Source: a virus. From it: a stretch of DNA of 47,304 bases. Below the pieces are notes generated by a model, which had not been told where the DNA came from, ran no database searches, and saw nothing but the letters and a program-made list of their open reading frames with translations. This document shows, piece after piece, positions 13,737 to 35,772 of the stretch; position 1 is the first letter of the stretch; each line of letters begins with the position of its first letter. A program made the translations under genes and the position numbers. Where the stretch lies: positions 1-47,304 of the IMG/VR virus record IMGVR_UViG_3300017917_001210. One strand, written 5' to 3'.

Positions 13737-13790
13737 TTGACAAACCCAAACTTATATTGTATTATTAACCAGATCCTGTGTTCTTAAATA
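13737..13790 (+). promoter_or_regulatory. Sigma70-type promoter and downstream TAAATA late element
   Basis: TTGACA at 13737-13742, 17 bases, then TATTAT at 13760-13765. A TAAATA core at 13785-13790 lies downstream, 32 bases before the lysin ATG. The pair would allow both host-polymerase and late transcription of the lysis genes. Confidence 0.65.
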
Positions 13791-16970: not shown

Positions 16971-17831
16971 ATGGCCAATGTTACAATCACAGTTCAAAGT
17001 TTATTGAACACTGCGGCGTATGACAGTTACACCATTGACAACGGACAAACCGTTAATCAGTTAAAAACTGTAATCAATGCTGCACAGGGGTTTAACAGCG
17101 CCTGGTATGACGTGGTCAATGGCAATGTGCTAACAGGTACCAGCACATTGAGTGCGCTGGGTATTACAACAGGCACAGCATTAAAAACACACAACAAGAT
17201 TTCAAGATTGGCCACAAGAGAACTTCGCCAAAAAGCCAAGTTGGATCTTGCGGCCCTGGATCGTGCAGATTCAAGCAACCCCCGTGCCACATATGATTTA
17301 ACATTGTTGCCCACACAGTTTGATAGCAATGCAGTTGTTAACAATCCCAACGCCGGCGGATTGGTTCTTGGTCGTCCTTGGATTGCAACAGTGTCTACCT
17401 TTACATTCTATGAAGCATTCGGAACAACCAGTACAATATCAACCACACAGTATGTGAGTGGCAATAAGATTTACGCTGAATCATCGACTTACGATGTTCC
17501 TAGTTATCAAAATGCCAGGATCGTGGTCAACGACATCATAGTGGCAAACACAGCTTTGCGTGGACATACCCTGGTGGTGCTAGACTCAAATGGTGATGTT
17601 GTTACTGGTCCTACTCAGTATGACACTTATATTAGTTCTGCGAATGTTGCTGCATTGGCATCAGCTTTAACCAGCGTGACCAGCAGTAACATTGTGGTGT
17701 TAGTGGTCTATGATGCATCAGCAGCAAATGCCGCAGTGCGTTCAGCAATCAACACAGGATACGGTTCAACAAATGCCAATACCTGGACAGCAGAAAGACG
17801 CAGTCACATCTTTATTGGTATAAAAGCATAA
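16971..17831 (+). CDS. Fibre-associated protein with ILEI/FAM3-type domain (286 aa)
   Basis: Residues 1-75 look like a small ubiquitin-like beta-grasp domain (VTITVQSLLN, then GQTVNQLKTVI). Residues 180-286 (ALRGHTLVVLDSNGDVV, then DTY, then NIVVLVVYDASAANA, ending RRSHIFIGIKA) follow the order of conserved elements of the ILEI/FAM3 domain, a carbohydrate-associated fold found in animals and in some phage fibres. It probably decorates a tail fibre or binds host glycans. It overlaps the next fibre gene by one base. Confidence 0.7.
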   Translation: MANVTITVQSLLNTAAYDSYTIDNGQTVNQLKTVINAAQGFNSAWYDVVNGNVLTGTSTLSALGITTGTALKTHNKISRLATRELRQKAKLDLAALDRADSSNPRATYDLTLLPTQFDSNAVVNNPNAGGLVLGRPWIATVSTFTFYEAFGTTSTISTTQYVSGNKIYAESSTYDVPSYQNARIVVNDIIVANTALRGHTLVVLDSNGDVVTGPTQYDTYISSANVAALASALTSVTSSNIVVLVVYDASAANAAVRSAINTGYGSTNANTWTAERRSHIFIGIKA

Positions 17832-21501: not shown

Positions 21502-21854
21502 TGCACAGTAATTTTATTACACCGCCAGACCTAGTTGACAACGATCTTCCTACAGTGCTCATGATTGATGCTGCGTGGGACGATGTTGAAAACATAGCCT
21601 TGTTTTGTCAGAACAGCAAACGCTGTTATAATGTGTATCTGTACACTGACATCATGTTTGATGCAGAGTGGCTCGGAGACGCAGTAAAACGTGCTCATGC
21701 TATTATTCTAAACTCTGCTGAAAGTGGTTGCACACAGGACAAGAATCGTTTGCTAAAAGATCCTCGAACCTGGTACTATGGACCAAACAACTATCTAGGC
21801 AACACCAACCAATTGCGTAACCCTATAGATTTTTTTATCAAAGACAATGAGTGA
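21501..21854 (+). CDS. Conserved phage protein of unknown function (117 aa)
   Basis: The ATG overlaps the stop of the previous gene (TGATG) and the end overlaps the start of clpX by eight bases, so the three genes are translationally linked. The pattern LPTVLMIDAAWDDVENIALFC, then CYNVYLYTDIMFDAEWLGDAV, then HAIILNSA alternates strands and helices like a Rossmann-type or receiver-like alpha/beta domain. No catalytic motif is clear. Confidence 0.6.
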   Translation: MHSNFITPPDLVDNDLPTVLMIDAAWDDVENIALFCQNSKRCYNVYLYTDIMFDAEWLGDAVKRAHAIILNSAESGCTQDKNRLLKDPRTWYYGPNNYLGNTNQLRNPIDFFIKDNE

Positions 21855-23055
21855 TTCTTCTAATCATGTGCTGTGTAATTTCTGCGGCAAGAGTCGCAGC
21901 GAAGTTGACAAATTGATTGTGGCAAACGACGCCGGCATTTGCAACGAGTGTATTGAGTTCTGTGCTGACCTTCTTAGCATGGAACGTGTTAAGAATCTGC
22001 AGTCAGATAAAAAGATCAGCAAGGCCCTGGATCCAGTTAAGATACGCAAATATCTTGACGAGTTTGTGATTGGACAGGACCAAGCCAAGATTAGTCTAGC
22101 AGTGGCAGTGGTAAATCATTACAAGCGTGTGTTCTTTGAACCAGAAATCGAAGTAGAAAAAAGCAATCTGCTCATACACGGACCAACAGGTTCAGGCAAA
22201 ACACTGCTGGCAAAAACTGTGGCCAAGTATCTCAATGTGCCATTTGTGATTGCAGACGCCACAACACTAACACAGGCAGGGTATGTGGGCGATGATGTAG
22301 AAAGTGTGATCAGTAGACTACTGAGTGCAGCCGATAACGATGTTGAAAAGTGCCAACAGGGCATTGTTTTCATAGATGAAATTGATAAAATTGGTCGTAA
22401 AAGTGAAAGCAGCAACTTGCATCGTGATGTGGGCGGCGAAGGTGTACAACAGGCTCTGCTCAAGTTGGTAGAGGGTACTGTGTGTAATGTTACTGTGAAC
22501 AGCGGTAAAAAGCATCCTAGTTTAGACAGTGTGGAAGTAAACACATCAAACATTCTGTTTATTGCAGGTGGAGCGTTTGACGGTCTGGACAAGATTGTGT
22601 CCAGCAGACAAAAAGGCACAGGCATTGGCTTTACCACAGCAGCCACCAGCAGCACCGCAGAGCAGGTAGAAGTGCTGCCCGAAGACCTAATCAAGTTTGG
22701 CATGATTCCAGAGTTTGTGGGACGTTTTCCAATTGCAGTAGGCATTGACGCACTGGATCTAGAAGACCTGACCAGGGTGCTGATTGAACCCAAAAACAGT
22801 TTGATACAACAAATGCAGTGGTACTTTGCCACCGACGGAATACAGTTGGAGTTTGAAGACACTGCTATCCTTACTATTGCGCAAACAGCGTTGGATCGTA
22901 AGGTTGGTGCCCGTGGGCTCAAGGGCATTGTAGAACAAGCATTGATGAGCACCATGTATTCCTTGCAGGAACTCAAGCGCACAGGAATAAGTAAAGTACG
23001 CATAACCAGCGATGTAATAACCAAACAAAAGGAACCGGAATATTTAAAATCATGA
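21847..23055 (+). CDS. clpX: ATP-dependent protease ATP-binding subunit ClpX
   Basis: ClpX unfolds proteins and feeds them to ClpP. All main elements are present in 402 aa: the zinc-binding domain (Cys10, Cys13, Cys32, Cys35), Walker A GPTGSGKT at 112-119, pore loop GYVGD, Walker B with Asp177-Glu178, and the sensor-2 GARGLK. The ClpP-docking IGF tripeptide is kept at 260-262, so it should still bind a ClpP ring. A ClpP gene lies 21 kb downstream. The stop overlaps the ATG of the bS21 gene. Confidence 0.97.
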   Translation: MSDSSNHVLCNFCGKSRSEVDKLIVANDAGICNECIEFCADLLSMERVKNLQSDKKISKALDPVKIRKYLDEFVIGQDQAKISLAVAVVNHYKRVFFEPEIEVEKSNLLIHGPTGSGKTLLAKTVAKYLNVPFVIADATTLTQAGYVGDDVESVISRLLSAADNDVEKCQQGIVFIDEIDKIGRKSESSNLHRDVGGEGVQQALLKLVEGTVCNVTVNSGKKHPSLDSVEVNTSNILFIAGGAFDGLDKIVSSRQKGTGIGFTTAATSSTAEQVEVLPEDLIKFGMIPEFVGRFPIAVGIDALDLEDLTRVLIEPKNSLIQQMQWYFATDGIQLEFEDTAILTIAQTALDRKVGARGLKGIVEQALMSTMYSLQELKRTGISKVRITSDVITKQKEPEYLKS

Positions 23056-23288
23056 AAGATAGACCAAAATTTGTTAACGGCATGACCGTTTTAGTTATCA
23101 ACGACAATGTGGAAAAAGCATTGCGCAAGTTCAAAAAGAAAGTGCAAGAAAGCGGACTCTTGCAGGATCTACGTGCGCGAGAATTCTACGAAAAGCCTAC
23201 CACTGCACGTAAACGTGCTAAAAATTCTGCCAAGCGCCGCTGGCAGAAACGTCTGGAAAGCCAGGCATTGCCTAAAAAACTCTACTGA
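23052..23288 (+). CDS. rpsU: Ribosomal protein bS21 (phage copy, 78 aa)
   Basis: The core (MTVLVINDNVEKALRKFKKK, then REFYEKPTTARKRAK, ending KKLY) matches bacterial bS21, including the near-invariant REFYEKPT-x-x-RKRAK segment. bS21 sits near the anti-Shine-Dalgarno end of 16S rRNA and affects initiation, so a phage copy could favour phage mRNAs. I use the ATG at 23052 that overlaps the clpX stop; the internal ATG at 23082 gives the canonical bS21 N-terminus and is a real alternative. Phage bS21 genes are known in large phages. Confidence 0.95.
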   Translation: MKDRPKFVNGMTVLVINDNVEKALRKFKKKVQESGLLQDLRAREFYEKPTTARKRAKNSAKRRWQKRLESQALPKKLY

Positions 23289-23542
23289 TGTACGTTGAAT
23301 TCCGTTTGCCAACTGGCGCAGGCGGAATGGCTGCTGGGCACTGTGCCGCATTGATCAAACGAAACATTGAAGCATGGGCAGTGAACCATAACATCAAGTA
23401 TAGAACAAAAATAGTCAATTACACTCTTAGACTGAGTTTACTGTCTGAACAGGACTATACTCTTTTTCAATTGAGCTGGAATCCAGATCACCACTGGGCA
23501 CGAGAGTACACATTGGTAGAGCCAATGGCCCAAAAAAATTGA
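23288..23542 (+). CDS. Small conserved phage protein (84 aa)
   Basis: The ATG shares a base with the TGA of the bS21 gene. The protein begins MYVEFRLPTGAGGMAAGHCAALIKRN and has alternating strands and helices with a His-rich segment (NPDHHWAREYTL). I do not recognise the family and see no classical catalytic triad. Co-expression with clpX and rpsU suggests an early host-takeover role, but this is inference. Confidence 0.6.
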   Translation: MYVEFRLPTGAGGMAAGHCAALIKRNIEAWAVNHNIKYRTKIVNYTLRLSLLSEQDYTLFQLSWNPDHHWAREYTLVEPMAQKN

Positions 23543-23569
23543 CTTCTTTCCCTTGATCGTGTATAAATA
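23539..23569 (+). promoter_or_regulatory. Composite promoter of the Hsp20 gene
   Basis: TTGACT at 23539-23544 is followed after 17 bases by TATAAA, which is itself part of a perfect TATAAATA at 23562-23569. The same -10 region can therefore serve host sigma70 and a T4-like late polymerase. Confidence 0.7.
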
Positions 23570-23574
23570 CACAT

Positions 23575-23631
23575 GTAAGATGCCTACGGGGTCTTACCAG
23601 TCATATTTTGCTTAAAGGAGAAAATAAAATG
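23575..23631 (+). promoter_or_regulatory. Possible ROSE/fourU-like RNA thermometer in the Hsp20 leader
   Basis: Hairpin I: GTAAGA (23575-23580) pairs with TCTTAC (23592-23597), with an inner CC-TACG-GG that gives a stable UNCG tetraloop. Hairpin II: TATTTT (23604-23609) pairs with AAAATA (23621-23626), G23610 is bulged, and CTT pairs with GAG across an AAAG loop. Hairpin II contains the Shine-Dalgarno sequence AAGGAG (23615-23620). A bulged G opposite the ribosome site and a UUGCU element are ROSE features. This is manual folding only. Confidence 0.55.
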
Positions 23632-24069
23632 GCTACTATCTTAACTCTTGACCTACCTACCCTGCATCGTCGCTTTATTGGTTTTGACCAATTTTTTGAC
23701 GAACTTGAACGCACGTTCCAAGTGCCCAAGCAGGACAATTACCCACCACACAACGTTATTCGCCAAAGCGAAAATCAGTTCAGCATTGAGCTGGCTGTGG
23801 CAGGCTTTGACGAGGACGAACTAGACGTCAGTTTGAGCAATCGTGTGCTAACCATTAAAGGTGAGCGTAAACCACGAGCAGCAACTGAGTCATGGGAATA
23901 CTTGCATCGTGGCATCGCCAGTCGCGATTTTGAACGCACCTTTCCATTGAACGACAATGTGGAAGTACGTGCCGTGACTGTGCGCAATGGCATCATGACT
24001 GTGAATCTGGAACTACTGGTTCCGGAGGAACAAAAAGCCAAAAAGATTGCAATTACGTTTGCCAAGTAA
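23629..24069 (+). CDS. Small heat shock protein (Hsp20/IbpA-like, 146 aa)
   Basis: I chose the ATG at 23629 (MATILTLDLPTLHRRFIGFD), eight bases after AAGGAG. The N-terminus with FIGFDQFFDELER and the alpha-crystallin domain (NQFSIELAVAGFDEDELDV, LTIKGER, HRGIASRDFERTFPL) are close to the IbpA/HspH family of bacteria. The protein binds unfolding proteins without ATP. It stands alone between a strong promoter and a terminator, and its leader may be temperature-sensitive. Confidence 0.95.
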   Translation: MATILTLDLPTLHRRFIGFDQFFDELERTFQVPKQDNYPPHNVIRQSENQFSIELAVAGFDEDELDVSLSNRVLTIKGERKPRAATESWEYLHRGIASRDFERTFPLNDNVEVRAVTVRNGIMTVNLELLVPEEQKAKKIAITFAK

Positions 24070-24074
24070 TATAA

Positions 24075-24106
24075 TAGTGGCTGCTAACCATGCAGCCACT
24101 ATTTTT
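24075..24106 (+). terminator. Strong rho-independent terminator
   Basis: A 10-bp stem TAGTGGCTGC / GCAGCCACTA with loop TAACCAT is followed by TTTTT. It closes the Hsp20 unit. Confidence 0.92.
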
Positions 24107-24120
24107 AATCGCGAGGAATT

Positions 24121-24441
24121 ATGAGCACAGATACACCAACCAAGGTACAAAACAATTTAAAAATTGAACCCAAGCTAAACATTCCTGAGCCTCGCATGTT
24201 TAAGGTTATTTTTATCAATGATGAAATTACCACAATGGAGTTCATTATTGAAACATTGAAGAACGTGTTTGACTACGATGAAGAAGATGCAAATGAAATG
24301 ACCATGCGTATTCATCAAGAAGGCGCAGCCATCGTTGCAGTTTATCCATATGAACTAGCGGAACAAAAAGGCATTGAAAGCACAGTACTGGCCCGTAACA
24401 ACGGTTTTCCATTGCAAGTTAAACTAGAACCAGAAGGTTAA
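24121..24441 (+). CDS. clpS: Clp protease adaptor ClpS (106 aa)
   Basis: The core (MFKVIFINDEITTMEFIIETL, then ANEMTMRIHQEGAAIVAVYPYELAE, then ARNNGFPLQVKLE) carries the ND-x-x-TTMEFV-type signature and the late helix and strand of ClpS. ClpS delivers N-end-rule substrates to ClpA/ClpC and blocks other substrates. No clpA is present here, so the phage adaptor would act on the host ClpA-ClpP machine. GAGGAATT precedes the ATG. Confidence 0.93.
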   Translation: MSTDTPTKVQNNLKIEPKLNIPEPRMFKVIFINDEITTMEFIIETLKNVFDYDEEDANEMTMRIHQEGAAIVAVYPYELAEQKGIESTVLARNNGFPLQVKLEPEG

Positions 24442-25560: not shown

Positions 25561-25579
25561 TATTTCGTACCCAAACGGA

Positions 25580-25585
25580 TAAATA
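25580..25585 (+). promoter_or_regulatory. T4-late-like element and structured leader of the curli-type operon
   Basis: GGATAAATATTAATG at 25578-25592 is followed by an 84-base leader before the CsgF ATG. In the leader GTGGGT (25599-25604) can pair with ACCCAC (25636-25641), while the overlapping GGTGA (25602-25606) can pair with TCACC (25626-25630). The two pairings exclude each other. Confidence 0.5.
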
Positions 25586-25669: not shown

Positions 25670-26119
25670 ATGAAGTTTCTAAGAACAGCAATGGCCGCTG
25701 TTTTACTACCCACTACAGTGTGGGCCGCTCCACTGGCCGATTATTCATTTAAAAGTCCTGCATTCAACGGAGTTGGATACAGTAGTCACGTGCTGACTAT
25801 TGAGAACCAAGAACACACACGTAGAGAAACACTAAGAAAAGATTTACAGGCTGCAATAGACAAAGCAGCAGCAGAAGCCAAGTCCAGTAACTTGAACAAG
25901 TTCTTAAACAACTTGGAATCACGTATCTATGCTCAGATCAGTCAAAACCTAGCAACAGCAATGTTTGCTGATGGTGGCAGCAACACCGGGTCATTGAATT
26001 TTGAAGGTAATACCATATCCTGGACCAAGGATAGCAGTAACGTATATCTAACTGTTACAGACCTAGTGGGTAATGTAACACAAATAACAGTACCATTAGG
26101 GCAATTTCAATTCCAATGA
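25670..26119 (+). CDS. csgF: CsgF-like curli assembly protein (149 aa)
   Basis: A signal peptide (MKFLRTAMAAVLLPTTVWAA) is followed by LADYSFKSPAFNGVGY, which matches the CsgF start (F-x-F-x-NPxFGG) that inserts into the CsgG channel. The middle helix and the final NVYLTVTDLVGNVTQITVPLG also follow the CsgF order. CsgF caps the CsgG pore and helps nucleate the fibre on the cell surface. The stop overlaps the CsgG start (ATGA), so the two are coupled as partners. Confidence 0.85.
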   Translation: MKFLRTAMAAVLLPTTVWAAPLADYSFKSPAFNGVGYSSHVLTIENQEHTRRETLRKDLQAAIDKAAAEAKSSNLNKFLNNLESRIYAQISQNLATAMFADGGSNTGSLNFEGNTISWTKDSSNVYLTVTDLVGNVTQITVPLGQFQFQ

Positions 26120-27363
26120 CAAAACTACTAACAACAATTTTATTAATAGGGTTATTGTCGGGTTGTGCAGTTACCCAAAATGATCGCATGGGCAAAGCTC
26201 CCAAGCCAGTGAACATGCCTGTGATGATGCAGAAAGAATTTGATGCAATTCGTGGCCCAGCCCACGGACAGCCTATTACAGTAGCACTGTATGGATTCAC
26301 AGATAAAACAGGTCAGCGTAGACCACAACAGAACATTGCCAGCCTGAGCACAGCAGTTACTCAAGGATCAGAAACATTCTTGATCAAGGCACTACAAGAC
26401 GTAGGGCAGGGTCGTTGGTTCAAAGTTGTAGAGCGTGTGGGCATTGACGGGTTAACTCGTGAACGCCAGCTGATTAGACAGATGCGCGAAGCCTACGAAG
26501 GATCGAACGCTAAACCTTTGCCGCCAATGACATTTGCTGGAATAATACTCGAAGGCGGTATTGTTGGGTACGATAGCTCAGTTAAATCTGGAGGCATGGC
26601 AGCACGTTGGTTGGGTATTGGGCCACAGACACAGTACAGTGAAGATATTGTTACTGTGAGTATTCGTGCTATCAGTGTAAGCTCAGGCGAAGTGTTGGCA
26701 GCAGTCACAGTACAAAAGACCATTGTGAGTGCAGCAGACAGCGTAGCAGCAATGAAGTTTTTTGACATGGGCACCAAGGCTTTTGAATTTGAAACTGGTA
26801 TGACAGTCAATGAGCCGGGGACATTTGCAGTCAAGAGTACCATTGAAATGGCAGTATTAGAGTTGATTAAAGAAGGTGCAAAGAGAAATGTATGGGCGTT
26901 TGACGCTGCCACACCAGCAGCAAGTCCAGCAATTCCTCCTGCAAAAGAGCAAAAGCCAGAACCGGTTCCTGAGAAAAAAGCAGAACCAGCACCTGTGCCT
27001 GAAGTTAAAAAAGAAAATCCGCCGGCCAAAACAGAACCAGCAGCTAAAGCAGAACCAGCGGTAACGGTTCCTGTTCCTGAGGTTAAACTGGCAATTACCG
27101 AGCAATCAGCAAACCCGCCCGCAGTTGATAAAAAAGAAGTAGACAAACATTTACCAGTGGTATATGTCAAGGGCACAACCTATTTGTATATGAAAAAAGA
27201 TCTTCATAGCAAACGACTGGGCTGGTTATCTACAGGCGTTGAGCTGACTGTGGCGGAAATGGATAATCATTGGGCAACCGTTGTTGACTCCATGGGTAGG
27301 CACGGGTTCGTTAGGAAGGCAGTATTAGTGTCCGAAAAACCTATAATAAGAAAAGGGCATTAG
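26116..27363 (+). CDS. csgG: CsgG-like outer-membrane curli secretion channel with SH3-like tail (415 aa)
   Basis: A lipoprotein signal peptide ends in LLSGC with Cys17 as the lipidated residue. Residues 35-255 carry the CsgG domain (ITVALYGFTDKTGQ, QDVGQGRWFKVVER, GGIVGYDSSVKSGG, GPQTQYSEDIVTVSIRAI), the nonameric pore that exports curli subunits. Unlike the 277-aa E. coli protein, it continues with a Pro/Glu/Lys/Ala-rich linker (about 260-345) and a C-terminal SH3-like domain (about 347-410) with VYVKGTTYLYMKKD and GRHGFVRKAVL. The extra part may bind peptidoglycan. Confidence 0.92.
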   Translation: MTKLLTTILLIGLLSGCAVTQNDRMGKAPKPVNMPVMMQKEFDAIRGPAHGQPITVALYGFTDKTGQRRPQQNIASLSTAVTQGSETFLIKALQDVGQGRWFKVVERVGIDGLTRERQLIRQMREAYEGSNAKPLPPMTFAGIILEGGIVGYDSSVKSGGMAARWLGIGPQTQYSEDIVTVSIRAISVSSGEVLAAVTVQKTIVSAADSVAAMKFFDMGTKAFEFETGMTVNEPGTFAVKSTIEMAVLELIKEGAKRNVWAFDAATPAASPAIPPAKEQKPEPVPEKKAEPAPVPEVKKENPPAKTEPAAKAEPAVTVPVPEVKLAITEQSANPPAVDKKEVDKHLPVVYVKGTTYLYMKKDLHSKRLGWLSTGVELTVAEMDNHWATVVDSMGRHGFVRKAVLVSEKPIIRKGH

Positions 27364-27385
27364 CCGAAAGGAGCAGTAAAATAAA

Positions 27386-28162
27386 ATGAAAATAAAATTT
27401 CTAGCAGCAGTGTTAATGCTAGGGATTACTAATTATATTCAAGCAGGTGACAATAAAGTATATATCGACCAAGTTGGTGATCGTAGCACAATAGCAATAA
27501 CCCAGGATGGGTCTAGTAACTTAGTAAAAGGCGTGGGTACCGCACAGGATACCAATGCTAAAATTCACGGCGATGACGCCGCAGTAACAATAACGCAGAC
27601 AGGAGCAGCCAACCAGCTGGTACTGGGCGTCAATGGTGGTGCCTTGGGCTCTAACAACATAGTTTCCTACACAGTAACAGGTAACTTAGGAAATGCCACT
27701 ATTGACTGTAACAACGCTGATACCGGCAAGTGTAATGCTAACAACATTGGCATCACACAGGTTGGTAACAACTCTTTGGCTACAGTAACCGTTAATGGCG
27801 AAAACAACGTGGTGACTGGTACTACCACTGGTGGTAACAATAACCAGTTGTATTTCAATATCACAGGTGACGGCTTGCATCCAAGCATTGCTATCACAGG
27901 TGGTGGCAACAGCGGCAGTATCACCATGGCGCCAACAGCAGGTATCAATGCCACAGCCACTATGACCATTACTGGTTCTAGCAACAACGTGAGCATTAAC
28001 CAAACAGGCGGAGCCGTGCTTGGACATACTGCACAACTAGGAATCAGTGGCAGCGGTAACACCGTAACAGTTGTTCAGACAGGTACAGCAGGAGACAATT
28101 TGTTTAACTTGACCAGCTCTGGCAGCAGCAATTCTATCACTGTTAATCAAAACACGCAGTAA
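27386..28162 (+). CDS. Secreted curlin-repeat protein, amyloid subunit candidate (258 aa)
   Basis: A signal peptide (to about residue 20, IQA-GDN) is followed by several curlin-like units of the S/N-x-I/V-x-I-x-Q-x-G-x-x-N type, for example NKVYIDQVGDRSTIAITQDG, AAVTITQTGAANQ, NNIGITQVGNNS and NNVSINQTGG. These Gln/Asn ladders form the amyloid beta-rungs in CsgA and CsgB. The ribosome binding site is GAAAGGAG. By position after CsgG it is the likely CsgA- or CsgB-type substrate of the channel. Confidence 0.85.
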   Translation: MKIKFLAAVLMLGITNYIQAGDNKVYIDQVGDRSTIAITQDGSSNLVKGVGTAQDTNAKIHGDDAAVTITQTGAANQLVLGVNGGALGSNNIVSYTVTGNLGNATIDCNNADTGKCNANNIGITQVGNNSLATVTVNGENNVVTGTTTGGNNNQLYFNITGDGLHPSIAITGGGNSGSITMAPTAGINATATMTITGSSNNVSINQTGGAVLGHTAQLGISGSGNTVTVVQTGTAGDNLFNLTSSGSSNSITVNQNTQ

Positions 28163-28174
28163 CCGGGAGAGGAA

Positions 28175-29284
28175 GTGAAACTATGCCGCATCGTCATCTT
28201 AGAACTATCGCTGATATTATTCGCGAGCAGCACACACGCTGGAATAGGAAAGATTACCGATCAAGTAAACACCCCAGCTTCGATACAACGACAGAAAACG
28301 ATGCTGAATGGGACGAAAGGTACAGCCCTGGAGATGCAAGATGCAGTGCGGACTGCCCAGGGAAAAGTTCAGATAACTTTTGATGACGAGACCAAGGTAC
28401 AGATCACTGAAAACAGTAAGTTAGTTATAGATGATTTTGTTTACGATCCTAACAGCAAGAAAGGCGGAAAACTTGCTGTTAATATCGCACTAGGCACAGT
28501 ACGTTATGCCAGTGGACAAATTGCAAAAAACAATCCTCAAGCAGTAGCAGTTAACACTCCTTCAGCCACAATTGGTGTGCGTGGCACAGACTTTACAGCA
28601 GCAGTAGACGAACTAGGACGCAGTACCATTGTGTTGCTGCCCAGCTGTCCAGTCGGTTGGCGCGATATTAAAACAGATTGTAAAACTGGTGAGATCAGTG
28701 TAACCTCAGATGAGGGCACTGTTATCATGAATCAACCCTTTCAAGCAACCACAGTGACCACAAGAGAAACCAGGCCCATGAAACCGGTTATTCTCAAACT
28801 TGATGAGGATCAAATCAACAATCTGTTGATCCTTACTCCAATCAAGGGAGAACCAACCAGAGAAGAACGCATGGACACTCGCAAGGGTTTTTTAGATGTG
28901 GATTTTTTAAAATTTGAAGGACTGGGCAATGCTCTAGAAGCGCAGGATCCTTTCAAATACAGCAAGTTGGATGTTAACTTTTTGGAACGAGAATTCTTGG
29001 TTAACATTCTGGACATGGTAGACGCCATGATCAAAGCACAAATGGATTACCTGGAAAATGCCAATGCCAAGCTACTACCAGACTACGTGGCACTCACAGG
29101 TGTAAGAGCAGTTATTGAAGATCCAATTGTACAGCTATGTCGCGAAGATAACAGCAGCAATGTGGCCTGTGTGCAGGTATTACAGACCAGAGATGTAACC
29201 ATTACGATCATACAAGAACGCATGGAGTTTAAGAATCGTGTGAACGCAGGTGGTATAAGCAATATAACTATTACACAAAACTAA
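28175..29284 (+). CDS. Secreted FecR-domain protein (369 aa)
   Basis: The start is GTG after GGGAGAGG. A signal peptide ends near HAGIG. Residues 30-195 are a FecR-type beta-helix domain (TALEMQDAVRTAQGKVQITF, SKLVIDDFVYDP, VNTPSATIGVRGTDFTAAV). The C-terminal half is charged and helical and the last residues (GGISNITITQN) resemble one curlin rung. There is no N-terminal sigma-regulator region, so this is a secreted structural or adaptor use of FecR, perhaps at the fibre base. Eleven bases separate it from the curlin-repeat gene. Confidence 0.8.
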   Translation: MKLCRIVILELSLILFASSTHAGIGKITDQVNTPASIQRQKTMLNGTKGTALEMQDAVRTAQGKVQITFDDETKVQITENSKLVIDDFVYDPNSKKGGKLAVNIALGTVRYASGQIAKNNPQAVAVNTPSATIGVRGTDFTAAVDELGRSTIVLLPSCPVGWRDIKTDCKTGEISVTSDEGTVIMNQPFQATTVTTRETRPMKPVILKLDEDQINNLLILTPIKGEPTREERMDTRKGFLDVDFLKFEGLGNALEAQDPFKYSKLDVNFLEREFLVNILDMVDAMIKAQMDYLENANAKLLPDYVALTGVRAVIEDPIVQLCREDNSSNVACVQVLQTRDVTITIIQERMEFKNRVNAGGISNITITQN

Positions 29285-29285
29285 T

Positions 29286-29873
29286 ATGAGACTTCCTACA
29301 ATTATTTTCTTCTCGTTGTTTTTACTTGCATGCGGATTGGCATTTGCAGACAATTCAATCACAGTGAATCAAGTGGGCAGTTCTAACACTATTAACATTG
29401 AGCAAGTGGGAACCAAACACAAGGTCACCGTGAACATGGGACAAACAACAGACGTGGACAACACTACGTTGACCATATTACAGCAGGGCACAGGAGCAAA
29501 AACTGCCACAGTTTCTATTCCGTCAGGAATTAACAACAGCGTTAATATACAGCAGGATGGTGCTGGAAATCACTTGGCCAGCATACAGAATTTAAACGGC
29601 TCTGGCAACGGTATAACCGTGAATCAATCAGGTGCAGGCAAACATGAGTTTAATGTGGTAGTAGGTGCAGGCACTACAAACAACGGAAATACTATTACCG
29701 CTACACAAGCAGGCGGTACAGGATCAGACAAGTGGTTTAATGTTTGGTTAAATGGAGCAACAGGAGCAACTGTCAATGTGGTACAGGACAATGCAAACAC
29801 CGCAGATCAAGCCAGCATGAACGTACAGTGCATGCCCGGAACCTGTGGAACATTCGGATACATTAAACACTAG
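29286..29873 (+). CDS. Second curlin-repeat secreted protein (195 aa)
   Basis: A signal peptide ends at LAFADN. The mature part has curlin-type rungs (NSITVNQVGSSNTINIEQVG, NSVNIQQDGAGNHLASIQN, NGITVNQSGAGK, NTITATQAGG). The C-terminus has a CMPGTC pair and ends FGYIKH, which could be a disulphide-closed cap. With the first curlin-repeat protein it makes a two-subunit set like CsgA/CsgB, but I cannot tell nucleator from major subunit. It follows the FecR gene by one base. Confidence 0.85.
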   Translation: MRLPTIIFFSLFLLACGLAFADNSITVNQVGSSNTINIEQVGTKHKVTVNMGQTTDVDNTTLTILQQGTGAKTATVSIPSGINNSVNIQQDGAGNHLASIQNLNGSGNGITVNQSGAGKHEFNVVVGAGTTNNGNTITATQAGGTGSDKWFNVWLNGATGATVNVVQDNANTADQASMNVQCMPGTCGTFGYIKH

Positions 29874-29874
29874 G

Positions 29875-29880
29875 TAAATA
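29875..29880 (+). promoter_or_regulatory. Possible TAAATA element before the small secreted protein
   Basis: TAGGTAAATATTTTTATG places the element only five bases before the ATG, so a transcript from it would be leaderless. No Shine-Dalgarno sequence is present. Confidence 0.3.
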
Positions 29881-29885
29881 TTTTT

Positions 29886-30215
29886 ATGAAAAAACTAGCC
29901 ATGGCTGCTATCCTACTAGCACTGGTATCACAGGGTTATGCTCGAGACAAAACAATACAAGTTACCTGTGGCACCAAGGAAGAATGGGTAATGACAGCCA
30001 ACAAATATGGCGAAGAATTGGTTATTGCGGCTCCCGCACCAAACAGAGAAACCATAGTGAGTCTATGGGTAAACTTTGCCACAGGGTCATCCAGCTGGGT
30101 AACTCATGTGGTAGCAACAGACGAATGGTGTATGACAGGCATAGGGGAGAAATTGCTAATACCAAAAGACAGTCCGTTGAATAATTTAACAGGAACAAGA
30201 GTAATATACAAATAA
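29886..30215 (+). CDS. Small secreted protein of the curli-type locus (109 aa)
   Basis: A signal peptide (MKKLAMAAILLALVSQGYA) is followed by a 90-residue beta-rich mature domain with two cysteines (VTCGTKEEW and EWCMTG) that could form a disulphide. The size and single beta-sandwich look recall periplasmic curli accessory proteins such as CsgC or CsgE, but no diagnostic motif supports either. It is the last gene before the operon terminator. Confidence 0.6.
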   Translation: MKKLAMAAILLALVSQGYARDKTIQVTCGTKEEWVMTANKYGEELVIAAPAPNRETIVSLWVNFATGSSSWVTHVVATDEWCMTGIGEKLLIPKDSPLNNLTGTRVIYK

Positions 30216-30237
30216 CCTCGCTAGTCGAGGTTTTTTT
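30214..30237 (+). terminator. Rho-independent terminator of the curli-type operon
   Basis: A 7-bp stem AACCTCG / CGAGGTT with loop CTAGT is followed by a run of T. It overlaps the last codon of the small secreted protein. Confidence 0.9.
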
Positions 30238-30257
30238 ACGACTAGAAGGAGAACGTC

Positions 30258-30341
30258 ATGAGTTGGTTCAATCATAGACCTACAAGAAATCCACCAGCCC
30301 CACCACCAACACACCCGCCATCTAGATGTAAGCACAGATAA
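30258..30341 (+). CDS. Proline-rich microprotein (27 aa)
   Basis: A strong AGAAGGAGAACGTC precedes the ATG. The 27 codons read MSWFNHRP, then a Pro/Thr/His-rich stretch, then SRCKHR. Phage genomes often carry tiny proteins that begin MSWF and continue with prolines, so I think it is real, but it is too short to be sure. It lies alone between a terminator and the next leader. Confidence 0.5.
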   Translation: MSWFNHRPTRNPPAPPPTHPPSRCKHR

Positions 30342-30360
30342 TTTTTTTGGTAGGTAGTCG

Positions 30361-30366
30361 TAAATA
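30361..30366 (+). promoter_or_regulatory. T4-late-like element upstream of the autotransporter
   Basis: AGTCGTAAATATCTAAG lies 69 bases before the ATG at 30436. The A-rich leader that follows ends in a strong site (AGAAGGAGCTAAAAATC). Confidence 0.5.
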
Positions 30367-30435: not shown

Positions 30436-32799
30436 ATGCGTAAACTATTGACTAAGGTCATTCTGGCCTTAGGTATCGCCTTTGCCCCTGTGGCTCAGGC
30501 AGACCTAGTTGACGGACATTTTAGTACTAATCAAATTTTTGATGTACAGTATTATTGGTCCGGCACAACTCTAAACGCAAGTAACTTTATCGCTCCGTAC
30601 GATATGAATTTTCAACATCCTACGGTAGCAGCTGGAGACTACTTTGCGTTTTTCCCAAGTACCACAAATCCCGGAACATATGGCATGGGGCTGTATAATT
30701 CCTCAGGAACGCTATTACAAGTCGTACACGACACCGGTACACTACAAGCCATTGGCCCAGATGCTATTTTTTATGTAGGATCAGGATTCTTTGGTACAGT
30801 GATTACTACCAGTGCAGGATACGCATATGGTGCCAGCGGTACATTTACCAATATGGATACCAGTGTGTCTGGAACTGATGCCAGTTCATACACCTGGGCT
30901 AGTACCACTCCACTGACAGCAGGTCAAACTGCCAGCAGCGGTGGCGGTAGCGGCGGTGGAACAACAACACCTACACCAACCTATACAGCAATTACCAGTG
31001 CAAATGTTGTGCAAGTTACTCCGACCAGTAACAACAGCCCAGCAGGTGAAGGTGCTACCAATGTGATTGATGGCAACACAGGCACAAAGTATTTGAACTT
31101 TGACCGTGCAAGTGCAGGTTTCACTATTAAACTGGACCAAGGTCGAGTAATTGAGAAATTCACAATTACCACAGCTAACGACTACTCTCCACGTGACCCA
31201 AGCAAGTTCAGCTTGTTTGGATCAAACGATGGACGTACTTGGACCACAATCGCTAACAATCAAAGTATAACATTAAGTGATAATCGTTTTACCACATCCA
31301 GCGACATTGTTGTGGCCAATACCAATGCTTATGTGTATTACTTTATTACTTTTGATTCCACCAAAGCCTTGGATCAATATCCAGTGTTGGCATCCTGTAT
31401 GGCAGCATACGGTGGTGGTTGGCTAGGTACCGAAAACTGTAACAGTGTTCAAGTATCAGAAGTCAAGTACTACTATGACAGTGCAAACAACACTACCAGT
31501 GTTGATGCTGGTAACGGTACTGTGGCTAACCCAGGAACAGCTGGTGCTACATCCAGTTTGAACACTGGCCCAACTGTGGTTGGTACTGCTCCAGGTGCAA
31601 ACATTGTATCCACAACAGAAACACCAGGCACAATGGTAACAAATACCAACAGCACACGCGGCACAACCACATCGGTTACCACTGTAAACGATGCACGTGG
31701 CGCACAGGAAACCAAACGTTTGGAAGTGGTTAGAACCACAACAGTGACTTCTACTACTCCAATCACCACAGTGGTTACACAGACAACACCAGTTACTGTT
31801 ACTACCGTGACCACACCAACTACTGTGACAACCTACAGTGATGGTACTACCACTACTACAAATGGTACTCCAGTAACCACAGTCGCAATCAGAACTGATG
31901 TGATCACAACAACCACAACTACCAATGAAGTTGTTAGTTCTTCCAGCGATCAGAGCTACTTTACCAAGATTGATCAGTACAGTAACCTGGCAGCAGTTAA
32001 CCAAAGACTTAACGCAGCATTGGACAGTGATGTTCTAGATCGTCACAAAGGATCTAGCGAAACTCTTGTAACTCGCAGCAATGCAGCGGGCAATGAGGAA
32101 AAAGGTTGGTGGTATCTAATTGCTGAAGGACAGCGTTCTAACACAGTAGACACATACTCCACTAAAACCAATCGTTATGGATTTGGACATGAGAAAAAGG
32201 TACGTGGTAACTGGATAGTTGGTTTACAATACAACCATCTAAGCAGCACCATGGCTGGTCTGGATGCAGGCGGCGGTTTGGTCAAAGACCACGTGGGTAT
32301 CTACAGTCTGTACAATCACAATGGTTGGTTGTTGAAAACTGATTTGGCATACAGCCAGAACAGCTTTACCAACTATCATTCATTGCCAGAACTGAACTAC
32401 AGCAACTCAGGCAAAACCGCAGGTAATGATATCTGGTTGAGCAACAGACTATACACTCCAGAGTTCAAAGGGTTCCGTCCTTTTGCTGGTGTACGTGTAG
32501 AGAACAACAAGCGCAACGAACTAACAGAAACTGGTTCTGCTATCACTGCAATGAACTATGCTGCTGTTAACCAAACTCGCACAGTAGGCGAAGTTGGTTT
32601 GCGTTATGATGTTGCAATCAGAGAGCGAGTGAACTTTATCGCAGAAGCCAGTCAAACTGACACAAGCCTTACAACTGTTAAGGTCGGTGTAAACTTTGCA
32701 CCAAAAGAACGTGTTATCGGTGGCGTAAGCGTGGTTCAACAAAGCCAAAACGGCGTACAAAATACTCTAGGTCAAGTATCTTTACGTTGGATATTCTAA
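30436..32799 (+). CDS. Autotransporter with discoidin domain and outer-membrane barrel (787 aa)
   Basis: A signal peptide ends at VAQADL. An N-terminal beta domain with a PEP-CTERM-like or surface-protein look (30-160) is followed by a Gly/Ser linker, then a discoidin (F5/8 type C) fold at about 185-305 (GEGATNVIDGNTGTKYLNF, PSKFSLFGSNDGRTWTTI). Residues 350-510 are a Thr/Val low-complexity stalk. The last 250 residues are an autotransporter-type barrel (GFGHEKKVRGNWIVGLQYNH, ending LGQVSLRWIF with a terminal Phe). The protein would display a sugar-binding passenger on the host surface. Confidence 0.85.
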   Translation: MRKLLTKVILALGIAFAPVAQADLVDGHFSTNQIFDVQYYWSGTTLNASNFIAPYDMNFQHPTVAAGDYFAFFPSTTNPGTYGMGLYNSSGTLLQVVHDTGTLQAIGPDAIFYVGSGFFGTVITTSAGYAYGASGTFTNMDTSVSGTDASSYTWASTTPLTAGQTASSGGGSGGGTTTPTPTYTAITSANVVQVTPTSNNSPAGEGATNVIDGNTGTKYLNFDRASAGFTIKLDQGRVIEKFTITTANDYSPRDPSKFSLFGSNDGRTWTTIANNQSITLSDNRFTTSSDIVVANTNAYVYYFITFDSTKALDQYPVLASCMAAYGGGWLGTENCNSVQVSEVKYYYDSANNTTSVDAGNGTVANPGTAGATSSLNTGPTVVGTAPGANIVSTTETPGTMVTNTNSTRGTTTSVTTVNDARGAQETKRLEVVRTTTVTSTTPITTVVTQTTPVTVTTVTTPTTVTTYSDGTTTTTNGTPVTTVAIRTDVITTTTTTNEVVSSSSDQSYFTKIDQYSNLAAVNQRLNAALDSDVLDRHKGSSETLVTRSNAAGNEEKGWWYLIAEGQRSNTVDTYSTKTNRYGFGHEKKVRGNWIVGLQYNHLSSTMAGLDAGGGLVKDHVGIYSLYNHNGWLLKTDLAYSQNSFTNYHSLPELNYSNSGKTAGNDIWLSNRLYTPEFKGFRPFAGVRVENNKRNELTETGSAITAMNYAAVNQTRTVGEVGLRYDVAIRERVNFIAEASQTDTSLTTVKVGVNFAPKERVIGGVSVVQQSQNGVQNTLGQVSLRWIF

Positions 32800-32814
32800 G
32801 CAGCAATGCTCAGC

Positions 32815-32841
32815 AAAAAGCTCGCTTCGGCGAGCTTTTTT
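32815..32841 (+). terminator. Strong rho-independent terminator
   Basis: An 11-bp stem AAAAAGCTCGC / GCGAGCTTTTT with a TTCG tetraloop and a T run follows the autotransporter gene. Confidence 0.95.
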
Positions 32842-32846
32842 GTTGG

Positions 32847-32852
32847 TAAATA
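32847..32852 (+). promoter_or_regulatory. T4-late-like promoter element TAAATA
   Basis: TTGGTAAATAGAATACTATG lies directly after the terminator and seven bases before the cyclase ATG. The leader would be minimal and no Shine-Dalgarno sequence is present. Confidence 0.5.
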
Positions 32853-32859
32853 GAATACT

Positions 32860-34902
32860 ATGAAAAAACTTCTATTAAACCCATGGACTGCACTGATTAC
32901 CTTGGCATTGGTACTAGGCATTCGTATATCCGATACCGCATTTGTAGAGTCAGTTAGACTGCGCTACTTTGACACACTGATCACAAGCAAGGCGCCAACA
33001 GAAAATAACATATACACGGTGAACATTGATGAAGCCACATTGGACAAATATGGCCAATGGCCTTTGCCAAGAGGCCAGTATGCTGAACTAATTGACGAAC
33101 TCTTCAAGAGAAACGCTGGACTGGTAGTGTGGACCATACTCATGCCAGAGCTGGATCGCAACGGTCAGGACAATGACCTATCGTATGCTTTGGCCACAAA
33201 CCCTGTTATTCTCAGCAGTGTGCCCAGTAACACATCCAAGAATCCCCCAAGACAGGTGGGTGTCAGTATTATGCGTCCTGAATTTACAGACCGCATTGTA
33301 CAGTATCCAGGCATGATATCTAATATAGAGGCCCTGAGCAGTCAAGCCGCAGGTGTGGGTATTGCCGGAACATTACCTGAGGTTGATGGTGTTAATCGTA
33401 GATTGCCTCTGGTGGTCAGCGTGAATGATGTGCTGTATCCAAGCGTGTCACTGGAAACACTACGAGTGGCAGCGGGTGATCCTAGTTTTCAAATCAAGCT
33501 GAACGAGAATGGTGTAGAGAAAATGCGCATTCCGCAGTTTGGTCCTATCGCCACAGACAACCTAGGGCGCATCTGGATTGACTGGAGCCAGCGCAGCCAG
33601 TCTGTGAGCGCAGCAAAGCTGCCAAAAGATTTTAACAAGGCCATTGTGATTGTGGGTACCAGTGCCGCAGGATTGGGTAACCCAGTGCCCACCAGCATTG
33701 GAGCAGTATGGCCTCAGGATGTGCATGCCAGCGTGATTGGCACTATGGTCAATGGAGTTACCATACAGCGACCGGACTACGCAGATGGGCTGGAAATACT
33801 TGCAATACTTGCTGCTGGTGTTATACTGCTAGCGTTAACCAGGTGGGTGTATGTTGGTCTAGCATCTGTGGTAGTTCTTGTTGGTGGATTCGCATACGGC
33901 AGCTACTATGCTTTTGCTACAGATCTTTGGCTGTTTGATGTTACCGCACCAATTGCAGGAGTTATCCTGGTTGCACTACACGCATACGGTGTGAAGTTCG
34001 TAAGCGAGTTCTTGCAGAAACAACAGATCAAGAAACAGTTTGGCAGCTATGTGAGCCCTGTTATCGTTGAGAGATTACAAAAAGATCCTAGTTTAATTAA
34101 ACTGGGCGGCGAAGAAAAGATGCTTACAGCAGTGATGACAGACATGCGCAACTTCACAGGACTAGGTGAAAAGTACGGCGCAGACGTTGAAGGCTTTACC
34201 GCTATCATGAACGCATACATGACAGCTATCAGCAAACCTGTGTTTGCCAACGATGGTTGTTTGATCAAGTTCATTGGTGATGCCAGCTTGCACATTCATG
34301 GTGCACCGGTAGACGACAATCGCCATGCTTACCGTGCTGCGCAAACAGCCATTGAAATGGTACAGGCCGTGGACGAGTTTAACAAGCACCTGCACAGTAT
34401 TGGCAAGCCACCAGTGGGTATGGGTGCTGGTGTTAACACAGGAAAGATTCTTGTAGGTAACATTGGATCAGAAGGCAAGATGGGATACGATGTACTAGGC
34501 GATCCTGTGAGCGTGGCCAGTCGACTGGAAGGTCAGACCAAGGGCTATGGAGTATTGTTGATCATTGGACCTGACACCTATGCAGAAGTTAAAAATGATT
34601 TCCATTGCTTTGAACTAGATTGCATTGCAGTCAAAGGCAAAGACATTGGATTGAATATCTATACACCACTGTTTAATCCTGCCAACTTCAATCAACATGA
34701 TGCCGACAGACATGCAAGCATGCTGGCTGCATACAGAGCTCAGGACTGGAGAGCGGCAACTGCAATTACCAAGAGTTTGATTGGCTGCTTTGGTGGCGAA
34801 TTGGACCACTACTATGAACTGTGGCTAGAGCGTATTGCAGCAACAAAGAAAATGAAATTACCAACAGACTGGGACGGAATCTACCGTGCTACTAGCAAAT
34901 AA
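32860..34902 (+). CDS. CHASE2-domain class III adenylate/guanylate cyclase (680 aa)
   Basis: An N-terminal helix, a periplasmic CHASE2 sensor (about 25-315; VNIDEATLDKYGQWPLPRGQY) and three membrane helices (about 315-380) precede a class III cyclase domain (about 405-600). Both metal aspartates are present, Asp428 (TDMRNFT) and Asp474 (KFIGDAS). The Lys in IKFIGD and Asp548 region favour ATP, but Ser551 replaces the usual transition-state Asn while Arg555 is kept (PVSVASRLE). The enzyme probably makes cAMP in response to an envelope signal. A C-terminal helical tail follows. Confidence 0.93.
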   Translation: MKKLLLNPWTALITLALVLGIRISDTAFVESVRLRYFDTLITSKAPTENNIYTVNIDEATLDKYGQWPLPRGQYAELIDELFKRNAGLVVWTILMPELDRNGQDNDLSYALATNPVILSSVPSNTSKNPPRQVGVSIMRPEFTDRIVQYPGMISNIEALSSQAAGVGIAGTLPEVDGVNRRLPLVVSVNDVLYPSVSLETLRVAAGDPSFQIKLNENGVEKMRIPQFGPIATDNLGRIWIDWSQRSQSVSAAKLPKDFNKAIVIVGTSAAGLGNPVPTSIGAVWPQDVHASVIGTMVNGVTIQRPDYADGLEILAILAAGVILLALTRWVYVGLASVVVLVGGFAYGSYYAFATDLWLFDVTAPIAGVILVALHAYGVKFVSEFLQKQQIKKQFGSYVSPVIVERLQKDPSLIKLGGEEKMLTAVMTDMRNFTGLGEKYGADVEGFTAIMNAYMTAISKPVFANDGCLIKFIGDASLHIHGAPVDDNRHAYRAAQTAIEMVQAVDEFNKHLHSIGKPPVGMGAGVNTGKILVGNIGSEGKMGYDVLGDPVSVASRLEGQTKGYGVLLIIGPDTYAEVKNDFHCFELDCIAVKGKDIGLNIYTPLFNPANFNQHDADRHASMLAAYRAQDWRAATAITKSLIGCFGGELDHYYELWLERIAATKKMKLPTDWDGIYRATSK

Positions 34903-34914
34903 TTGGATAGACTT

Positions 34915-35772
34915 ATGCGTAAGTACATACCTATACTGCTACTTCTTTCCTTATTATTTCATGGGGCAAGTGTCGCAAAAACACCAGCCAGTACCAACGA
35001 CCTAACAGCCAAAAGCTGGTTGGTAACTGACAGCGAAGGAAATCTCATTGCAGGTGAGAATGTGCATGCGGTACGCAGTATTGCCAGCGTGACCAAGTTG
35101 ATGACTGTGCTCACAATACTGGACAGGCATGCAGAACTGGATCGTCCACTGGACCTAACCATGCGTAACTATAATAAGAAAACACGCAAGGCCAAGCGCA
35201 GTGCATATGATAACCTCACTCGTAGACAGTTGATTGACCTAGCCATGATTCGCAGCGACAACAATGCGGCCAGGTTGTTGTGCGAAACATATCCTGAAGG
35301 ATACAAAAAGTGCATTGATGACATGAATGCCAAGGCGCACAGTTTAGGTATGTTGTACAGTGTGTTCTACGATCCTACAGGACTAGATGACAGAAACAAC
35401 AGCACAGCCGCAGACCTGGTCAAGTTGGCCAGAAGTGCAGTGAACTATCCTGAAGTGGTAAATGCCAGTCAGCAGAGTCAGATCAAGGTAAAGATCAAAC
35501 GTCACTGGTTTGCAGGACACAACACAAATCCACTGATCGGCAACACGCATGACATCAAGGTCAGTAAGACTGGGTGGACCACACGAGCTGGTGGGTGTAT
35601 TTTGATGCTAATGGACACAGACAAAGGACGCAGGATCGTTGTGGTATTGGGCAGTAAGAGTATCAAGACTCGAATACCTGAAGCAGAGTTTATATCTCGG
35701 ATTGATGAAACAGCGGTGGTTGAAAAAGAGCCTAATACACTGTTTGGTATCAGGCTCTTTGGCAGCGATTAA
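34915..35772 (+). CDS. D-Ala-D-Ala endopeptidase, PBP7-like (S11 family, 285 aa)
   Basis: I chose the ATG at 34915 (MRKYIPILLLL); a TTG at 34903 would add four residues. A signal peptide ends near SVAKT. The three penicillin-binding motifs are present: SVTK at 58-61, SDN in MIRSDNNAA, and KTG in VSKTGWT. The short length without the C-terminal anchor domain matches PBP7 (PbpG), which cleaves peptidoglycan cross-links in the periplasm. It begins 12 bases after the cyclase, so the two may share one mRNA. Confidence 0.92.
   Translation: MRKYIPILLLLSLLFHGASVAKTPASTNDLTAKSWLVTDSEGNLIAGENVHAVRSIASVTKLMTVLTILDRHAELDRPLDLTMRNYNKKTRKAKRSAYDNLTRRQLIDLAMIRSDNNAARLLCETYPEGYKKCIDDMNAKAHSLGMLYSVFYDPTGLDDRNNSTAADLVKLARSAVNYPEVVNASQQSQIKVKIKRHWFAGHNTNPLIGNTHDIKVSKTGWTTRAGGCILMLMDTDKGRRIVVVLGSKSIKTRIPEAEFISRIDETAVVEKEPNTLFGIRLFGSD
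35725..35760 (-). terminator. Terminator for the minus-strand membrane genes, inside the PBP7-like gene
   Basis: On the minus strand AAAGAGCCTGATAC pairs with GTATTAGGCTCTTT (one mismatch) and is followed by TTC after a T tract. It lies within the last codons of the convergent PBP7-like gene, and may stop both transcripts. Confidence 0.7.

Follow-up and report, generated by a model that had tools for sequence, protein, structure and literature searches.

A phage-borne curli secretion module without CsgE and its possible role as a decorated surface of infected cells

Curli-type amyloid export modules have been reported in pelagimyophages (PMC7029224), in the Methylophilales phage Melnitz (PMC9004378) and in podoviral pelagiphages (PMC9599517), where the curlins, FecR, a histidine kinase and a cyclase were spelled out. 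Superinfection block, 'sibling capture', uptake and lysis have been put forward as hypotheses (PMC7029224, PMC9004378, PMC9599517), and the phage curli of these marine SAR11 and OM43 phages were left without a function. The set CsgF-CsgG-curlin-FecR-curlin-cyclase in a phage is already a known finding. Here, a related module was analyzed in the virus record IMGVR_UViG_3300017917_001210, a stretch of 47,304 bases (the window) that is a fragment of a larger phage genome. With a probability of roughly 55%, it is read as a CsgE-less type VIII secretion (curli) module carried by a phage, with the alphaproteobacterial layout (csgF-csgG-curlin-curlin), FecR between the curlins and a CHASE2 cyclase downstream, which would work as a decorated, sticky surface.

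The modules of the pelagiphages (HTVC008M and HTVC023P-type clades) and Melnitz resemble that of the window in gene order, in having no CsgE and in the presence of a FecR tail, and their CsgGs are 44-46% identical to the window CsgG. The cyclase of HTVC008M and Melnitz stands in the same place, and HTVC008M carries a PA14-curlin fusion, a payload-type second curlin as in the relatives of the window. The window differs in that its CsgG falls in a separate clade in the tree described below, part of which has an SH3-type CsgG tail and whose contigs reach 357 kb, and in that an autotransporter with a shared ectodomain adjoins the operon. Podoviral pelagiphages have the histidine kinase upstream; the window has instead ClpX, Hsp20, ClpS, an exoribonuclease and one gene without assignment. 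The window shares the CsgG, CsgF and curlin families with csgBAC/csgDEFG of E. coli, but it has no CsgE, CsgC and CsgD were not seen, the gene order is different, and FecR and the cyclase are added.

The block at 25670-30215 comprises six plus-strand genes, overlapping or separated by short gaps, in the order CsgF, CsgG, curlin, FecR-domain protein, curlin and small secreted protein. It belongs to the same island as 30436-34902, and the features are as follows.

25578..25585, plus strand: T4-late-type motif GATAAATA, 92 nucleotides ahead of csgF; putative late promoter.
25670..26119, plus strand: CsgF, with a signal peptide and a conserved N-terminal PxFxGxG segment (PF10614, E=3.1e-13).
26116..27363, plus strand: CsgG, outer-membrane pore lipoprotein with a Pro/Lys/Glu-rich linker and a C-terminal SH3-type domain (PF03783, E=6.2e-45).
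27386..28162, plus strand: first curlin subunit (A1), predicted to have about ten rungs (PF07012, 1.6e-5).
28175..29284, plus strand: secreted FecR-domain protein (PF04773, 1.4e-11) with a C-terminal Gln/Asn-rich beta tail at about residues 310-369.
29286..29873, plus strand: second curlin (A2), short form, with a Cys pair near the C-terminus (PF07012, 1.0e-5).
29886..30215, plus strand: small secreted protein, signal peptide in the sequence, private to the window.
30214..30239, plus strand: terminator of the curli operon, with a 7-pair stem followed by T7 (30214-30232).
30361..30366, plus strand: late-type motif TAAATA, 75 nucleotides ahead of the autotransporter gene.
30436..32799, plus strand: autotransporter-type protein with a signal peptide, an F5/8C-type ectodomain (about residues 21-400; PF00754, 2.5e-8), a Thr-rich stretch and a C-terminal beta-barrel ending in Phe.
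32810..32842, plus strand: terminator-like hairpin, read from the sequence, between the autotransporter and cyclase genes.
32860..34902, plus strand: membrane CHASE2 sensor with a class III nucleotidyl cyclase domain (PF05226, 3.1e-37; PF00211, 8.9e-16), TAAATA 13 nucleotides upstream.

A first-pass annotation, made from the letters of the window, had described 25670-30215 as a curli-type amyloid export locus in a phage, with CsgF, CsgG, two curlin-repeat proteins, a secreted FecR-domain protein, signal peptides, a lipobox and a closing terminator. This content was borne out. Window proteins were searched against Pfam profiles with curated cut-offs, and CsgF (50.5 bits against a cut-off of 25.8), CsgG (153.5 against 20.8), both curlins and FecR all scored above theirs. 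The CsgG profile matched its E. coli counterpart at 2e-63. The lipobox of CsgG (LLSGC) and the signal peptides of the block's proteins can be read from the sequence. The end of the block had been placed too early, however; the linked autotransporter and the CHASE2 cyclase were missed, as was the SH3-type CsgG tail, and the FecR gene had been given no role. The small secreted protein matched no Pfam family and had no relative among the viral loci compared.

The N-terminal pore segment of CsgF was present in all 97 distinct viral CsgFs. At least 355 residues, which include the linker and the SH3-type tail, were found in 41 of 96 distinct CsgGs; 19 of 28 long C-terminal tails matched SH3_4 (best 3.5e-10), and the tail of the window's own CsgG was sub-threshold (E=0.0085). 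A profile built from 42 curlin relatives matched the solved curlins Pontibacter CsgA (8c50, E=2.3e-21) and E. coli CsgA (8enq, 2.3e-5). Moreover, the motif [hydrophobic]x[hydrophobic]xQxG occurred six times in each curlin, against 0.15-0.18 copies expected, and none of 5000 shuffles reached six; the predicted curlin assignment is more than a composition effect. The first curlin was modelled by AlphaFold2 as a regular two-strand solenoid (predicted local distance difference test score, pLDDT, 86; predicted template modelling score 0.82). No significant match to this model was returned by Foldseek against the PDB, and thus its membership rests on sequence. Where synonymous divergence could be estimated, the ratio of nonsynonymous to synonymous substitution rates was 0.06-0.13 in comparison with one related locus (L004), indicating purifying selection.

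The module is widespread among viruses. Two scans of CsgG-bearing virus contigs yielded hundreds of relatives, of which 563 were confirmed among the stretches examined in one scan. In the loci compared, which include the window and two phage isolates and in which some contigs were fetched twice, CsgF and CsgG were found in 136, FecR in 119 and curlins in nearly all, and Hsp20 and ClpS preceded the module in about 100. A survey of related phage contigs had been proposed by the first-pass annotation, and it found the curli gene order kept in about 100 viral loci on contigs of up to 357 kb. Three of them (L037, L086 and L090) run ClpX-Hsp20-ClpS-exoribonuclease-CsgF-CsgG-curlin-FecR-...-cyclase, as in the window.

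In a CsgG tree made by a quick method and containing some long branches, the 51 viral sequences, together with four from mis-binned phage contigs, lay on one side of a branch with an SH-like approximate likelihood ratio test (SH-aLRT) support of 94, and the pelagiphage and window CsgGs lay together on that side. The group of the window's CsgG (49 rows, support 99) was apart from the marine group in the same tree. Only seven phage records matched the window CsgG, none above 46% identity. As judged by these comparisons, the window CsgG represents a separate clade of large phages, of which the phage records searched contained no cultured member. The block lies among structural, ribonucleotide reductase, tail-spike and head-protease genes, and the G+C content of related loci ranges from 32 to 49%. 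A virion structural protein of the window is 38% identical to its cyanomyovirus S-T4 counterpart, and the ultraviolet endonuclease is closest to those of 258-265 kb phages; similarities of this kind link other genes of the window with T4-like phages and with phages of roughly 260 kb.

As bacterial carriers of the full module, the top four genome matches (L137-L140) were considered and rejected, since they are mis-binned phage contigs whose non-curli proteins are common to Melnitz and HTVC008M. They are GenBank contigs of metagenome-assembled genomes filed as Flavobacteriaceae, Rhodobacteraceae, Pirellulales and Sphingobacteriales, and represent Melnitz/HTVC008M-type myophages; such binning may wrongly attribute curli to these bacteria. 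A 1.5-kb Salmonella phage record with no annotation (OR851715) was not treated as evidence.

CsgE was found neither in the window, where the first-pass annotation had also failed to recognize it, nor in any of 22 related large virus records. It was likewise absent from all 19 alphaproteobacterial genomes that carry the closest CsgGs and csgF-csgG-curlin operons, and present in five of five gammaproteobacterial genomes. As the nearest bacterial curli genomes have no CsgE, its absence is not a sign of a broken system, and the argument from an incomplete operon loses force. CsgE is not a defining feature of the alphaproteobacterial curli branch. In E. coli, secretion in the absence of CsgE is restored when CsgG is overexpressed (PMC6957492).

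The 19 alphaproteobacterial curli operons share with the phage module the F-G-curlin-curlin order (19/19), but neither FecR nor a CHASE2 cyclase was found within about 9 kb of them, and their CsgGs lie across the SH-aLRT 94 branch from phage CsgG. In the published view, FecR and the cyclase are not part of bacterial curli operons. The nearest FecR homologues in genome contigs were inspected at 80 loci; 55 of these, including three phage contigs, had a CHASE2 cyclase within 4 kb, and csgG was absent from every true bacterial FecR-cyclase locus examined. The same cluster is known in Campylobacterota (PMC9239204), and this bacterial pair, a FecR-domain protein beside a CHASE2 cyclase as in the window, differs from it in the FecR C-terminus and in having no curli genes nearby. 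Real bacteria had either a curli operon or a FecR-cyclase pair, never both in the loci seen. Because each part occurs in bacteria without the other, the phage module looks like a union of an alphaproteobacterial-type operon with a signalling pair.

The fold of the FecR domain resembles the PupR/anti-sigma signalling domain. Its Gln/Asn-rich C-terminal stretch was found in all 81 distinct viral FecR homologues and is predicted to form six strands (pLDDT of about 85-92); the bacterial partners have a different C-terminus. The tail was considered as a true curlin repeat and rejected: the motif and the predicted strands were suggestive, a profile comparison with controls was unsupportive, and Pfam curlin gave no match in 51 members. 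In the viral CHASE2 cyclases, the metal-binding Asp residues are present, and at the GDxVN position, the transition-state position, 38 of 57 homologues, including the window, carry Ser where Asn is usual, compared with 1 Ser and 34 Asn in bacterial partner cyclases. The viral cyclase may be altered or regulatory.

The part of the system that we consider most worth a specialist's time is an exchangeable payload. The second curlin occurs in a short form, as in the window, and in relatives in a long form of roughly 400-840 residues with a different N-terminal domain, namely PA14 (L018, L057 and the isolate HTVC008M) or F5/8C (L014 and L088). Over its residues 1-407, the protein at 30436-32799 shares 53.5% identity with the long curlin of L088 (residues 1-384). 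Like type V autotransporters (PF03797), this protein has a signal peptide, a passenger and a C-terminal barrel ending in Phe; it differs from them in its F5/8C-type passenger, which is common to phage curlins. Its own barrel fell below Pfam detection for PF03797. The barrel is 34-39% identical to relatives, two of which match PF03797 at 2.6e-14 and 6e-13; the former, L133, was found by phmmer at 1.7e-59. A PF03797-type barrel is thus assigned via relatives and not directly. An annotated relative occurs in the isolate Synechococcus phage DSL-LC03, and viral autotransporters also occur without curli (L275 and L292).

An ectodomain scan returned 37 loci, of which 22 were fused to curlin, 11 to a barrel and 4 were unclear. 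As the same ectodomain is found on both curlin and barrel, and PA14 on other second curlins, the payloads appear to be swapped; by sequence comparison, the ectodomain is a payload moving between two surface scaffolds, fibre and barrel. No statement of this kind was found in the literature consulted.

The sequence TAAATA is the core of the T4 late promoter. Of 97 distinct loci, 72 have it within 150 nucleotides ahead of csgF, compared with 6 on the opposite strand. Ahead of the cyclase it occurs in 41 of 69 loci (1 on the opposite strand), and ahead of csgG in 0 of 101. In the window it precedes three units, csgF (about -90), the autotransporter (-75) and the cyclase (-13), which terminator-like hairpins separate. 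A sigma-70 promoter scan gave fewer sites than in shuffles. We infer that the curli unit may be expressed late, and the motif speaks more for a function towards the end of infection, such as holding debris, progeny or neighbours, than for an early exclusion of rivals. Transcripts of viral curli have been reported from the ocean (PMC9599517).

The most probable reading is a curli exporter without CsgE that would be produced late in infection and coat the host cell. Following late transcription, the products would be exported by Sec, as their signal peptides indicate, and CsgG would form the outer-membrane pore. The SH3-type tail would be periplasmic and may attach the pore to peptidoglycan or aid substrate entry without CsgE. 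CsgF would plug into the pore via its conserved N-terminal segment and hold the fibre, as its conservation and E. coli biology suggest, and both curlins, to judge from their family, would leave the infected cell and stack into amyloid on its surface. The second curlin or the linked autotransporter would present an exchangeable glycan-binding-type ectodomain (F5/8C or PA14), which would give the cell a decorated and sticky surface. By analogy with the same pair in bacteria without curli, FecR and the CHASE2 cyclase could report the state of export or assembly to the cytoplasm as a cyclic nucleotide. The benefit is most likely late-infection adhesion or aggregation, which would keep progeny or debris near new hosts.

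The proposal of the first-pass annotation that infected cells could build surface amyloid is supported because the set is complete (pore, coupler and two subunits), because it is under purifying selection and because glycan-binding-type domains are fused to the second curlins of relatives; the fibre remains predicted. A fuller version is put forward tentatively, at less than even odds: late viral curli and the viral autotransporter would be interchangeable scaffolds for glycan-binding-type domains, which would be swapped between them and anchor infected cells, debris or progeny to new hosts or particles, with the FecR/CHASE2 pair re-aimed at curli and monitoring assembly.

Several observations weigh against these readings. 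The fibre is a prediction from genes, and none has been seen so far. Melnitz infections showed no clumping under the conditions of the study (PMC9004378), and thus clumping might require different conditions, or the fibre might have another purpose. The constriction-loop residues of CsgG are unlike those of E. coli. As for timing, Melnitz csgF has no late motif upstream, and a control with Melnitz structural genes went in the same direction but was weak (8/20 against 2/17). As for the payload, no curli genes were found in the fetched flanks of 8 of the 11 barrel-fused ectodomains, and L275 and L292, phage contigs of 355 and 367 kb, carry a barrel-borne ectodomain and no CsgG, so that the autotransporter is not tied to curli. 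As for the signalling pair, the hhalign score of the FecR tail against curlin was equalled by 15 of 200 column-shuffled controls, and the Ser for Asn leaves the predicted activity of the viral cyclase unsure.

Among other explanations, superinfection exclusion survives best, although we consider it unlikely. The same machinery would serve a different benefit, with the amyloid coat and surface proteins masking the receptors of the infected cell from competing phages, as proposed for pelagiphages (PMC9599517). The variable surface ectodomains of relatives would suit masking as well as binding; however, glycan-binding-type domains suit binding at least as well, and the late-type motif ahead of csgF would make the module late for exclusion.

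It is quite improbable that CsgG and CsgF were turned into a pinholin- or secretin-like pore that times lysis, with the other genes as bystanders. This was proposed for Melnitz from a structure model and synteny (PMC9004378), and a cell wall hydrolase is encoded both in the window (at 13778) and in Melnitz. However, that proposal assumed no fibre subunits, while curlins are found in nearly all loci and are annotated in the Melnitz record itself; CsgF retains its pore segment, and an outer-membrane pore does not depolarize the inner membrane. Moreover, the payload fusions speak for a surface that is sticky or binds, rather than for a lysis pore or an uptake channel.

Uptake, suggested in PMC7029224 and PMC9599517, is very improbable. 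An open CsgG pore would admit larger nutrients such as cobalamin or siderophores, and FecR would be an iron regulator; CsgF, two curlins and the payload fusions are left unexplained by this. FecR of this type pairs with a CHASE2 cyclase in bacteria, and neither a FecI-type sigma factor nor a TonB receptor was found among the window proteins searched, which did not cover some small open reading frames. Finally, an assembly chimera of phage and bacterial DNA, which the first-pass annotation had named as a possible refutation and which bacterial-looking surface genes within a phage contig might suggest, has practically no chance of being correct, being already refuted by the same block and flanks in many independent contigs, and further opposed by the flat G+C content across the block, by the separation of phage from bacterial CsgG in the tree and by the isolates HTVC008M and Melnitz that carry the module.

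Other genes of the window are recorded here as separate observations. Directly 3' of the cyclase, 34903-35772 encodes a D-alanyl-D-alanine carboxypeptidase-like protein (PF00768, 2e-37) that is kept in about 30 relatives and may serve to adjust the cell wall as part of the same island. A Pro-rich open frame of 27 codons with a good ribosome-binding site (30259-30342) separates the terminator of the curli operon from the autotransporter gene. Upstream of the module, a phage ClpX-like ATPase, Hsp20 and a ClpS adaptor occupy one stretch (21847-24441). A pectate-lyase-like beta-helix protein with tail-spike matches (5432-7072) carries Mtd_N (PF18454, 5.3e-7), the N-terminal domain of the major tropism determinant, and an ILEI-domain protein (16971-17831; PF15711, 5.9e-10) adjoins the cyanophage-like virion protein.

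Returning to the decorated surface, the second subunit in the wider family frequently bears a domain of glycan-binding type, which also occurs on a viral autotransporter. With the domain on both scaffolds, the product would resemble a surface-display system rather than a lysis or uptake pore. More than a hundred other phages, many of them much larger, have the module next to surface domains of sugar-binding type, carried by the fibre in some and by a membrane barrel in others, which points to a remodelling of the infected cell surface. If this is true, lytic phages would alter how infected cells stick in open water.

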